NCBI GenBank assembly: GCA_019915135.1
Contig: JAHLMK010000018.1
Location: forward strand, 124,001 to 188,000
Reading direction: 5' to 3'
Source of the DNA: Strobilurus pachycystidiatus
Lineage: Eukaryota > Basidiomycota > Agaricomycetes > Agaricales > Physalacriaceae
Length of the DNA: 64,000 nt
Part shown: positions 39,876-45,702 of the stretch, one piece after another
Layout: the number at the start of each line of letters is the position of its first letter
Position numbering within the stretch: position 1 is the stretch's first letter
The notes under the pieces: model-generated
The model's database searches: none
What the model saw: the letters and a program-made list of their open reading frames with translations, nothing else
Told to the model about the DNA's origin: nothing
Translations under genes and position numbers: made by a program

Positions 39876-42800
39876 ATGACGCCCCCCCGTTCCACATCCT
39901 CTCGAGGACGCGCAACTCCGACCAGAGCACGACCTCTGGCTGGGGCTGCGACTCCTCTAGCGGGGTCTGCAGGCCGAGGCAACCTGCAGGCTGGTATTGC
40001 TTGTAAGTTCGATATGTTAATGACGACTCGACTCGTATCTTCGACGTCGTGCACCGTGGCGTATCATTATGACATTTTTTGTTGACAAACGCTTGAAGCA
40101 TTCGTGGCTGCTGTCGGTGTTAAGCGCCCTGGCTATGGTACCGCCGGCAGACCCGTCAAGGCCTTCGTGAACACTTGTCGCGTGGACTTCAATGTCAAAG
40201 ATATTTATCAATACGATGGTATGTGGTCATCGATCTCCTCTCTTCTCTACGTCGATTAACTCGAGGACAGTAACGATTCTGACCCAAGACGGTACGCGAC
40301 GCATTGTGCGCACATGTGCCTCCATGTTTACAGTCTGTAGGCACGGAAAAGAGCTTGCCGAAGCGTCTGGCTAGAAAGATTTTCGCCTGTCTCCAGCCAC
40401 AATACCCCAACATCTTCATTCTGGGATCTGTTGTCTACAACGATGCTAAGATCGCATTTGCCGCTCGTCAGTTGGACTTCGGCCCCGAAGATCCCGCACC
40501 TCTTTCCAAAGCGGTATGTCTCCACAGGACTCTCTCATTGCTTGCTGATCGTGTCCACCTAGTTCTCCGTCACTTTCACCCCTGCGGATGTCCAGGAACC
40601 CAGACCCAAGGTCTACCAAATCAAGCTCACCACCGTCCTTGACGAGAGAGGCGCCGTCAAGAAGATCAACCCCGAGTGCGCGTCGCGACCCATTTAGGAC
40701 ATACCCATACTAACGCCATCTCAGGATCCTCATGCGCTTTATTCGCGGGCAGCAGTCCAACGACACCGCCGTCGCGGAAGCCTTGAACGTACGTATCCCC
40801 TGACTCTATCTTCACCTGCTTTCAACACACCATCACTTAGGCTCTTTCTGTCGTCTTGAGGATGCATCCGTTCGAGTCCCATCCATTCTACGGTCGATCC
40901 TTCTATACCTCGCGTGGAAGTCGCTCTATCAGGTCGGGCCTAGAGGTCTGGCAAGGGTATATTCAAACTCTTCGTGCCGCCTCCGCCGGTCTCCTCGTCA
41001 ATTTGGACATTACGGCCGGTGTAATGTACAAATCGGGTCCTCTGGCCGACCTCTGCGTTGAGTACTTGGCAGAGCGCAGTATCCGCGGCCCTCAGGATCT
41101 CAGCCAGACCGTCAAGCACTGGACTGAATATCACAGACGGAAGCTCTCACGCTTCATCGTTGGCATGAGGGTTATACCTACGATCGGAGCTTCAGGAGCG
41201 AAGATGCGCAAAGGGAAGCCGGTAACGATTGCCGCGATTACGAAGGAAGGCGCCTCGTCAGTGACGTTCCAGTCGAATGGTGGTGCACCTACCACTGTTG
41301 CCGAGTACTTCCGACTACAGAACCAGCCGTTGAAATACAATCACACCCTCTGTATCAAGGCGAGTGTATATCTATCTATGTTGATGGTCTTCCTCATATA
41401 CAAATCAGACAACGTCTGGCGCGTATTATCCCCTCGAACGATGCGATGTCGTTCCCGGCCAGCTTGTCAAGAAGGAGATTCCGCCTGATGCCGTCAAGGA
41501 AGTTGTCACTTTTGCCACGAAATCTCCCGGTGATCGCTTCAGAGCAATCAAAGATGCAGCGACAACGGTACAAATGCTTACGTATCCACCTACATGTGTG
41601 CTAAACTCTCATCAGGTCTTTGGGTACGGGGCTTCGGACTACGTTCGCGAGTTTGGCCTTACCGTCCGCACCGATGGGCTGCCTATGGGACTGGAAGGGC
41701 GCATCCTTCCGGCTCCCAAATTACAATATGGAGGAAAGAAGGACGAGTTTGTACGACTCTAGTCGTTTTGTGTCCTGATGATATCTAACATGCATGTCCA
41801 GACTCCATCCGGCGGCGCATGGAACCTGTATGCCTATACAGCTCCTGCTGCTCATGTACTGACTGTCCTGTCATCTCTAGCGCTAACAAGACGCTGTACA
41901 AGGCAGAAGGAATACGAGGATGGATCCTCTTGGTTCTTGTCCGGATGGATGACCCGGCCATTGATCAACTTGCAGAGGACTTTACGCGAGGATGCGAAAG
42001 TGTTGGGATGAAGTTCGGCATCCGCCGACCATGGATCGTGAAATCTGTGGCTGAGAACGCTGCCGGGGTACGTGTGTTCGCTTATCTTCATGCGTTCATC
42101 TGGTCATATGTCCGCACAGGCTCTAAGTGAAGCTGGGCGTGCCTTCGCCGCAAAGGCAAACTTCCTTCCTGAACTTATTGTTGCAGTACTTCCTGATGCG
42201 AACAATGCACACATCTATGCAGCTGTGAAGCAGTGAGTCGGCTTGTTGCTCGACAAGATGGTGATCTGATGGCTTCTTGTAGTTTTGGCATGTGCAATAC
42301 CGGAGTCGCAACGCAGTGTCTTCGCTACGCAAAATGCTCAAGGGCAAAGATGCAATACTGGGCCAATGTCGCTCTCAAGTATGCTTTGTCTGGTTCCAGT
42401 ATCTTACATGCTAACCTTGCATGTAGAGTGAACGGTAAACGAGGCGGTGTCAGCGTTATTCCGTGCAATGAGCCCGGACAGGCAGCCATCACTGACCCGG
42501 CTATGCCCACTATTGTTCTTGGTGTGTATGCTTTTGATCTGTATTGCAATTCTTTACTCATGTACGGCTCCCTAGGTGCTGATGTTACGCATCCGCCCCC
42601 GGGCTCGCAGTCGCCATCGTATGCCGCCCTGGTCTCCAGCGTGGATAGTCAGTGCGCTAAGTACGTAGCCTCGGACCGGGTCCAAGGTGCACGAGAGGAG
42701 ATGATCAAAGACATGGAGGATATGACTGTTAATGCGCTGGAAAAGTACATGGGCTACAGGAAACTCGTCGAGAAGCTTCCGACGTTGAAACCAAAGCGGT

Positions 42801-43669
42801 TGATTTATTTCCGTGGTATGCCAAATTCCTGGTTCCGTGTTCTCGAACTTATATATATAGATGGTGTCTCCGAAGGCGAGTTCAGGAAGGTGTTGGACTT
42901 GGAGCTGCCCCAGATCAGAGGTACCGTCACCTATTTCATTTTGTGGGAAGGTGTCGTTGAAAGCAAATGCTAGCTGCTTGTGCTCGCACTGGTGTCAACC
43001 CGCTCATCACAGTTCTTGTCGTTATCAAGCGGCACCACATCCGGTTTGTCGTTTTCTGAAATGGCTGTCAATGCACTGAGACAACCGTCGCATAGATTTG
43101 AAGACGAAGCGGGAAAGAATCTCCCTGCGGGTACGGTCTTTGATTGTGACATAACCAGCCCAGTCGAGCATGACTACTACCTCCAAAGTCACGCTCCTCT
43201 TTTGGGTACAAGCCGCAGTGGGAAATATTCAGTGTTGTACGATGTGAGCCACTGTCTTTGAAAGTCATGGCATGTTCCTGATATCCTTGTGATTGTAGGA
43301 CAACAATTTCTCTGCTGACGCAATTCAGCGCCTGTCTTACACCCTCTGCTATACCTACGCTCGTGCTACACGCAGCGTGTCAATCCCCACCCCGGTCTAC
43401 TGTATGTTGTCTTTTTGGCGGTGTGGCGGTGTGGGTATATCAATGAACCTGCTATTCATAGATGCCCATCTTGTCTGCGACAAGGCGAAATTGCACTACA
43501 AACCTGCTGAGGCGATGCAGCTCTCCGATGCGGGTACGGATTCGTCTGTCGGACAGGCATACATCGATAAGTATCTACCCCTCCACCGCAACATGAGCAA
43601 CCAAATGTGGTGGCTGGTGAGTTCCCTCCCTAACACCTATACAGCCGTGTCATAATTGTTGTACAGTGA
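39876..43669 (+). CDS. Argonaute (small-RNA-guided silencing effector)
   Basis: Full-length eukaryotic Argonaute split by many short introns. The start at 39876 gives an Arg/Gly-rich leader ([14 protein letters not shown]). The N domain follows ([17 protein letters not shown]), then linker 1 ([17 protein letters not shown]). PAZ comes next ([27 protein letters not shown]), ending at PGQLVKKE. Then MID ([11 protein letters not shown].. [12 protein letters not shown]) and PIWI. PIWI retains [17 protein letters not shown] (first Asp), REEMIKDM (likely glutamate finger), [11 protein letters not shown] (second Asp after splicing) and [13 protein letters not shown] (His). The catalytic tetrad thus looks intact, so slicing is plausible. 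The stop is either spliced TGA at 43667-43669 or TAA at 43653 if the last intron is retained. No Dicer or RdRP gene lies in the window. Confidence 0.95.
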
Positions 43670-44307: not shown

Positions 44308-45702
44308 TCAAGCACTGTCCGACGAGGGGGAAGACCTCTTATCCTCTAAATCCTTTCGACGGCTACGGAAGAACATAAGTTGGGGCTCCGAACTCCCAAT
44401 CTATAAGCTTACCGGTGATCAAACCACGCTCGAATTGTTTTGGTGGGCACCCCAAAGTTTTCTGCCATTTCGTACAACCGGGCGCCTCTCATATAAGGCC
44501 TCTCGCGGTACGCCGCTTCCAGCGCCTCCATGTTCGAGAGACCAATTCGGGACAGGATCGTTGACCCCTTCTTCGTGGGTTGGCTCTGATCCAATTTTGC
44601 TTGTACTCGTCTGGGTAATCCGGGGCATGAACATGAACAGACAAGACGAGTCCGTGGGACGTACCGGTTCTCGAACCACCTCTTGAGTGACAATGCTGTT
44701 ATGCCGAGCTCCGCCGCTAGCTTTTCCCCCCTTTGCTTAGGGAGTCTAGAACTGATAGCAAACTCCGCCTCTAGCTTTTCCATTCCAAGGGCGCCGATCT
44801 TGCTCAGCATGGTCGGGCGTACCAGCGCTTCGCCTCGCTCGCGTCTGTCGGAGGACGTCGGAAGTCACTCAAGGAGGAGAGGAGAGGGACAGCTATACCG
44901 ATATCTGAACCAGTCATATACACGTTTCGGAGACATTTTTGTACATTCTGACAGTTCCTTCATCTCGAGCGCTCCAGAATTCGGATTTCGATCATATGCC
45001 TCGGTCAACATTTTCATCACGGCAGGTTCACGCCGCGTCGCCATTTCCTCATTGAAAGGACTCATTTTGCGCTTTAGGCTATCAAGAATGCACTCAGTCT
45101 GTGGCACAGGCAGTAGTAGCTGTTGTACGTACCGTTTGTAGAACCAGTTGTAGAGTGTACTTTGTGGTATCTCGATACTCTCCGCTAATTTAACGAGAGA
45201 ATCGCCGGCGGGAATAGCACCAGTCTCATCCCAGATCTTCTCGAGCCTCAGCAGAGCCGAGTATGGGATTCGGCGCCGTTTGTCCAACCTTCCAGCTAGG
45301 ATGCTAACATCGTCCTTGAATGCAGGAGGATCTCTATTGATGTAACAATTTCTGCCACACGGGAAGATCAGAAATTGCTGCCGCCATGCACAACATACAC
45401 GGCTACCTACGCCTCCAGAACCACATGTATATGGTATTACGAGGCAAGCCCAGTCGTGCTACGATAGCCGTGAGATCTGTTCCCCTTGGAATGTCACCGG
45501 TTTCTTCCCATATGCGCTGTAAAACGAGGAGACTGTCGTTCGATATGGTGCTGGATCGGCCGCCCTGGCGGCGGTTTTCGCGAATGCCGGACCCGGGGGG
45601 GGCGTCTGCTGTCTCGTGTTGGAGGGCAATGCCAGACGCGCACAGCGGGCGAAGGCCAACTTTACAGTGAAGACGTCCGAGAGCCAGTGGGACACTGAGC
45701 AT
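44308..45702 (-). CDS. Five-homeodomain protein, one homeodomain per exon
   Basis: Putative DNA-binding protein with five consecutive homeodomain-like repeats. Each ends in the recognition-helix core WFxxRR: WFWRR (WF at 45423-45418), WFYKR (45146-45141), WFRYR (44912-44907), WFENR (44678-44673) and WFDHR (44426-44421). Between them the helix-1/2 pattern recurs (LLRLEKIWDETGAIP, LVKLAESIEIPQSTLYN; MEALEAAYRERP, LYEMAENFGVPTKTIRA). An intron follows each WFxxR and splits the next Arg codon (CG|gt). Introns are 45334-45409, 45079-45132, 44845-44898, 44611-44664 and 44363-44412; three are exactly 54 nt. Internal exons are 201, 180, 180 and 198 nt, all multiples of three. The C-terminus is RRKDLEDKRSSPSSDSA. 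The N-terminal start at 45702 is the least certain point. Confidence 0.78.

Follow-up and report, generated by a model that had tools for sequence, protein, structure and literature searches.

A candidate five-homeodomain gene in Strobilurus pachycystidiatus and sibling arrays sharing a phase-2 intron in helix 3

We analysed a window of 64,000 nucleotides from the basidiomycete Strobilurus pachycystidiatus (contig JAHLMK010000018.1, here C18). A minus-strand gene at positions 45702-44308 of the window is predicted to have six exons separated by five short introns, all of them GT-AG and all in phase 2. Its spliced reading frame is open, without an internal stop, across exons of 296, 201, 180, 180, 198 and 55 nt, and encodes a predicted product of 369 amino acids if intron 1 is 73 nt long or of 375 amino acids if it is 55 nt long. 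The predicted features are as follows (a slash marks a splice junction).

Exon 1, 45407..45702, minus strand: 296 nt; start codon, about 46 amino acids before homeodomain 1, and homeodomain 1 up to helix 3 (WFWRR); ends AG/gtagcc
Intron 1, 45334..45406, minus strand: 73 nt; preferred alternative 45352-45406, 55 nt
Exon 2, 45133..45333, minus strand: 201 nt (or 45133-45351, 219 nt); tail of homeodomain 1, linker and homeodomain 2 (WFYKR)
Intron 2, 45079..45132, minus strand: 54 nt; phase 2, codon 52; no in-frame stop
Exon 3, 44899..45078, minus strand: 180 nt; homeodomain 3 (WFRYR)
Intron 3, 44845..44898, minus strand: 54 nt; phase 2, codon 52; in-frame stop present
Exon 4, 44665..44844, minus strand: 180 nt; homeodomain 4 (WFENRR), the sole repeat in the window with Asn51
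Intron 4, 44611..44664, minus strand: 54 nt; phase 2, codon 52; no in-frame stop
Exon 5, 44413..44610, minus strand: 198 nt; homeodomain 5 (WFDHRR)
Intron 5, 44363..44412, minus strand: 50 nt; phase 2, codon 52
Exon 6, 44308..44362, minus strand: 55 nt; end of helix 3 of homeodomain 5, a short charged and then serine-rich tail, and the stop

More than one acceptor of intron 1 leaves the frame open. We prefer the predicted 55-nt form, with an exon 2 of 219 nt, because a branch-like CTGAT lies 20 nt upstream of the 45352 acceptor and because its length resembles that of the other introns. The internal exon lengths given in an earlier note on this DNA (201, 180, 180 and 198 nt, all divisible by three) hold in an open spliced frame with every junction in phase 2, and the 219-nt alternative is also in frame. 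The predicted protein is basic (pI 10.0, net charge about +21). Its N-terminal 28 residues include no acidic and three basic residues, but because a stricter criterion, requiring four or more basic residues and no acidic one, still admits 10 of 131 background ORFs, we make no claim of mitochondrial targeting. The gene lies near a LisH-like gene (21.4 bits, just below its cut-off) and a Piwi-domain frame (42197-42973, plus strand, E = 2.5e-20) that is perhaps part of an Argonaute gene. No catalytic transposase domain was found in the six window ORFs scanned, out of eight of at least 220 amino acids between 30 and 60 kb.

On the minus strand, the WF cores of repeats 1 to 5 read WFWRRR, WFYKRL, WFRYRR, WFENRR and WFDHRR, at residues 94, 162, 222, 282 and 348 of the 369-residue form. 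They are spaced by 68 (74 with the shorter intron 1), 60, 60 and 66 residues, so the linkers are short. The reported five WFxxRR cores in one gene were thus correct in number and place, with the exact motif in four and WFYKRL in repeat 2. In homeodomain numbering (W48, F49, N51), four of the five introns interrupt codon 52 between its second and third bases. The CG/gt junction said to follow every core is found at these four, but behind repeat 1 phase 2 is preserved by an AG/gt donor one codon later, after the second base of codon 53. Each exon boundary lies inside recognition helix 3, and an exon completes one domain, runs through a linker and encodes the greater part of the following domain. 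The description of each homeodomain as sitting on its own symmetric exon is therefore inexact: the exons are symmetric and phase 2, but they do not correspond to domains. As modelled, such a boundary still permits frame-safe duplication, because joining any of these exons would give a complete helix 3; predicted splicing restores Arg52 at all four codon-52 junctions and Arg53 at three of them.

The five repeats are homeodomains by several measures. Against Pfam-A, the best family for the whole protein was Homeodomain (PF00046; E = 2.6e-31, 107.6 bits against a cut-off of 22.9), matched in five stretches. It was also the best family for every repeat searched singly, with repeats 1 to 5 scoring 18.9, 15.5, 24.9, 36.7 and 33.4 bits and three of the five exceeding the cut-off alone. 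No domain other than helix-turn-helix (HTH)-type families was found by Pfam in the protein. A profile built from the five repeats matched 109 distinct PDB sequences (E ≤ 0.01), and the 60 highest-ranking of these are homeodomain proteins, with DUX4 first. Structure models of the two weakest-scoring repeats, 1 and 2, contained three helices each (mean pLDDT 82.2 and 75.0), and the best 50 of their 404 and 464 Foldseek matches (E ≤ 10) were homeodomain-containing entries. Four and five of these rows, respectively, bear a co-crystal title alone, and four of the five co-crystal-titled entry codes relate to an even-skipped chain of the PDB profile search or to its series. The best Foldseek E values were 0.025 for repeat 1 and 0.021 for repeat 2, with probabilities of 0.97-1.00 and many r.m.s.d. 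values near 1 Å; neither repeat had a match at E ≤ 0.001, as expected for domains so short. Both checks named in the earlier note, a profile search of each repeat and structure prediction, thus favour homeodomains, and the assignment to a transposase-type HTH family that would have counted against its reading was not obtained. TALE-class homeodomains are longer by three residues between helices 1 and 2. In alignment with PF00046, repeats 3-5 need no insertion and repeats 1 and 2 have a single additional residue, which places all five outside that class.

We searched the genome (51.8 Mb, 61 contigs) for the homeodomain family, with 39 matches at E ≤ 10, and for single proteins. Four sibling arrays were identified.

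C1:6260283 onward: 7 repeats (hereafter C1a)
C12:704555 downward, minus strand: 5 repeats
C1:250344 onward: 3 repeats
C1:241089 onward: at least 2 repeats, with weak possible fragments downstream

Together with the window gene, these loci contain 22 repeats, and a profile of all 22 matched 191 distinct PDB sequences (E ≤ 0.01), of which the 60 highest-ranking are homeodomain proteins. Predicted donors lie in codon 52, phase 2, in 20 of the 22 repeats (18 GT, and 2 GC in C1a), a count of predicted sites in which many junctions have more than one open acceptor, one of which was chosen. Among the 17 repeats of the siblings, 16 donors are in codon 52, phase 2 (14 GT, 2 GC). The two exceptions, repeat 1 of the window gene (codon 53) and repeat 2 of the C12 gene (codon 55), also keep phase 2. 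With the preferred acceptors, chosen among open ones, an Arg53 codon follows at 16 of the 20 codon-52 junctions. Unit length is less regular: at the preferred splice sites, sibling internal exons span 159 to 309 nt, and sibling introns span 48 to 56 nt apart from two of 79 and 105 nt. The 180-nt exon and 54-nt intron emphasized in the earlier note are present in the window gene, twice and three times respectively, but are not rules of the family, and a fixed 180-nt unit is ruled out by the varying sibling exons.

In C1a, the donors after the duplicated repeats at C1:6261013 and C1:6261846 read GC (AACAG/gcatgttc), which suggests GC-AG introns there. The last exon of the C12 gene (C12:703439 downward, minus strand) appears to add about 300 amino acids past the same codon-52 junction; this region had no Pfam match and found only its own place in a search of the genome. 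Two other homeodomain matches, at C7:889250 (WFQN CG/gt) and C2:506473 (WFQN AG/gt), end at the same helix-3 position as the array repeats, so the helix-3 intron may predate the arrays.

The statement that basidiomycete homeodomain proteins normally have a single homeodomain fails in this genome, where six loci have at least two domains by profile match and two further genes appear to be double. A minus-strand locus at C8:761192-762232 contains three homeodomains, each cut by an intron near residue 39-40 and all three with Asn51; it is a second, different intron-marked array. Flanking C1a are two apparently double-homeodomain paralogues (C1:6256582 and C1:6267777, both minus strand), the first domain of which was read by eye. 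Each is followed by a similar reading frame, forming a local duplicated cluster with C1a between.

How such arrays grow is visible in C1a. Over an alignment of 544 bases that takes in introns, its repeats 3-4 and 6-7 agree at 439, and of its 15 intron pairs two stand out, 2 with 5 (z = 7.0) and 3 with 6 (z = 6.9), with weak values for 4 with 6 (3.2) and 3 with 4 (2.4) and the remaining 11 at -0.2 to 1.3. These matches are direct evidence for a younger tandem block duplication of exons together with their introns. The duplicate pairs may differ in constraint, on small counts: dN was 0.165 and dS 0.516 for repeats 3 and 6, and for repeats 4 and 7 the values were 0.155 and 0.141 in the domain and 0.218 and 0.169 in the exon. 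Across loci, mean repeat identity was 0.328 within genes versus 0.230 between them, a gap reached in none of 5,000 label permutations.

In the window gene, the within-gene excess is small (0.249 versus 0.214), and repeats 1 and 2 form the sole clear mutual best match (44%), which points to an array that is old or fast evolving. Its introns have no residual similarity over 10 pairs (z = -1.7 to 2.3), and we rejected intron similarity as proof of duplication there; 30 comparisons with C1a introns gave z values of -2.7 to 3.0, one at 3.0. With dissimilar introns and only repeats 1 and 2 close, we infer exon duplication in this gene from where its introns fall and from the siblings. Tandem duplication of exons between identical-phase introns, as had been proposed, thus agrees with the symmetric phase-2 exons and varying repeat number of the siblings and with the intron-including block of C1a, but draws nothing from sequence similarity among the window introns; the proposed mechanism, unequal crossing over, is a fair guess.

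The helix-3 signature of homeodomains comprises Trp48, Phe49, Asn51 and Arg53, and Asn51 reads an adenine in known homeodomains. In the window gene, Trp48 and Phe49 are present in all five repeats, as are Arg52 and one helix-1 Leu, and Arg53 is present in four, but Asn51 is found only in repeat 4. Across the five loci 7 of 22 repeats retain Asn51, compared with all 8 of the other, hand-listed homeodomains of the genome (Fisher P = 0.002). Those eight exclude three matches whose helix 3 is cut at Trp48 (C8:1355379, C8:1375345 and C2:828325), the TALE place at C8:1356606, matches on C10 (which stops before helix 3), C13 and C22 (weak, with Ser51), and the double-homeodomain genes C1:6256k and C1:6267k (Asn51 in one of four domains). 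When the four double-gene domains are included, Asn51 is present in 9 of 12 of the comparison set (P = 0.030), and with C22 as well in 9 of 13 (P = 0.043); all of these P values are too small because repeats of one gene are not independent. The contrast thus appears real in direction but modest. With Asn51 in so few repeats, most are probably not standard DNA readers, and its loss from four of the five window repeats weakens the suggestion that the repeats have different DNA specificities.

Among 7,995 scored candidates, no homologue of the spliced protein was found at E ≤ 0.01. A single-homeodomain gene of the same genome, used as a control against the same database, matched 39 homeodomain proteins, six of which bear names of fungal species, including Coniophora puteana, Imleria badia, Boletus edulis and Mycena capillaripes. 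As the control gene is more conserved, it shows that mushroom homeodomain proteins are in the database, not that a fast-evolving orthologue would surface. The window gene may therefore be an orphan, very fast evolving or beyond the reach of a word-based search. A search with the repeat profile gave 73 candidates, none at E ≤ 1, and says little because it reaches only proteins of similar short length.

Collectively, these results favour, with a probability of roughly 0.7, a genuine multi-exon gene encoding a small, basic, putatively DNA-binding protein made almost wholly of five homeodomains, one of a group of at least five loci that share a phase-2 intron in helix 3. The recurrence of this intron would allow exons to be duplicated without breaking frame or fold. 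In the model we propose, the five domains would be spliced into one protein that enters the nucleus and binds contiguous DNA. Because Asn51 is kept in repeat 4 only and Arg53 in four of five repeats, we infer one specific, sequence-reading anchor, repeat 4, to which the remaining repeats would add contacts with the DNA backbone, the minor groove or proteins. This anchor-plus-accessory mode is drawn by analogy with animal ZHX proteins, one solved repeat of which is reported to have a disrupted DNA site (PMC2893186). With no other domain found, the protein might act as a competitor, repressor or architectural factor, the weakest step of the model.

A decaying or non-expressed locus, in which an old homeodomain array drifts and its repeats lose their DNA contacts, would account for the absence of Asn51 from four repeats and of any homologue among the candidates scored, and the codon bias is weak, with nearly equal G+C at third (0.573) and first (0.559) positions. 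Near-equal dN and dS in repeats 4 and 7 of C1a point the same way. We nonetheless consider decay unlikely, given six open exons with consistent phase, no internal stop and GT-AG at every intron, the Trp48, Phe49, Arg52 and helix-1 Leu shared by all repeats, and dN below dS in C1a repeats 3 and 6. The locus might instead produce two or more smaller proteins, with retention of introns 2 and 4 or early transcript ends yielding isoforms of one to three domains. Introns 2 and 4 (54 nt each) lack an in-frame stop, so their retention would keep the frame, and introns 1, 3 and 5 contain stops, so retention there would truncate the protein. Still, the Arg52 and Arg53 codons restored by splicing, at the same sites as in the siblings, make such isoforms a distinctly improbable account of the gene.

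Mating-type homeodomain genes form a divergent HD1/HD2 pair, often beside mip. A candidate locus of this kind lies on another contig.

C8:1352738-1354258: peptidase M3 (mip-like)
C8:1355379, minus strand: weak homeodomain match, 18.8 bits, under the cut-off
C8:1356606, plus strand: TALE-type match, 44.7 bits

These three features, within about 4 kb, probably mark the mating-type A locus (C8:1352738-1356725); a further homeodomain fragment lies at C8:1375345, about 20 kb from this M3 and TALE cluster. Basidiomycete HD genes are described as mating regulators (PMC8305134), and the window gene might in principle be an expanded member, but with the likely A locus on C8 and the window gene on C18 this is very unlikely. 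Equally remote is a transposase- or CENP-B-type HTH from a mobile element: HTH_23 (26.2 bits) and CENP-B_N (21.6), like HTH_72 (30.0) and Homeobox_KN (28.6), narrowly exceed their respective cut-offs when the whole protein is scored, and HTH_Tnp_1 (21.1) falls under its own, but on Pfam scores, which favour Homeodomain for the protein and for each repeat, and on the listed PDB profile and fold matches we rejected this identity.

The favoured reading, an array gene of five homeodomains, has counterparts outside the fungi. Vertebrate ZHX1-3 and HOMEZ likewise carry several divergent homeodomains per chain (five in ZHX); ZHX and ZFHX proteins, however, combine homeodomains with C2H2 zinc fingers (two in ZHX), and no zinc-finger family is among the 20 Pfam families listed for the window protein. 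DUX4 and the double-homeobox family, whose DUX4 ranked second to an engrailed chain in the 22-repeat PDB search, also have tandem homeodomains, but only two, and are mammalian. DUXA is reported to have an intron within each homeobox (PMC2211742), a likeness to the window gene in the presence of introns. In C. elegans, approximately 25 unclassified homeobox genes are rapidly evolving, as the window gene may be, and many encode several homeodomains, but these are animal genes and a shared intron phase is not mentioned in the excerpt (PMC6956190). Marchantia MpBELL2/3/4 likewise encode multiple homeodomains each, designated a, b and c (PMC8476127), but are TALE-class genes of a liverwort. Basidiomycete HD1/HD2 and single-homeodomain regulators belong to the same superfamily, with one homeodomain matched at each of C7:889250 and C2:506473. 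In the portions of the open-licence literature covered, we found no description of a fungal protein with several homeodomains, so that multi-homeodomain proteins are known there from animals and a liverwort and the fungal case is apparently without precedent.

A more speculative and rather doubtful extension is that these loci represent a fungal homeodomain array assembled from exon modules, which would parallel tandem zinc-finger genes. The helix-3 intron would make recognition helices frame-safe cassettes that can be duplicated, swapped or lost, and repeat number and DNA contacts would change fast between species, possibly under diversifying selection as in genome defence or self-recognition. 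The route of growth is in any case legible, with one helix-3 intron position in nearly all repeats of five loci and a visible younger block duplication. The arrays thus offer a natural setting in which to study the lengthening of DNA-binding arrays and the share of repeats that still read DNA, and counts of fungal homeodomain genes could miss arrays that are split over short exons.
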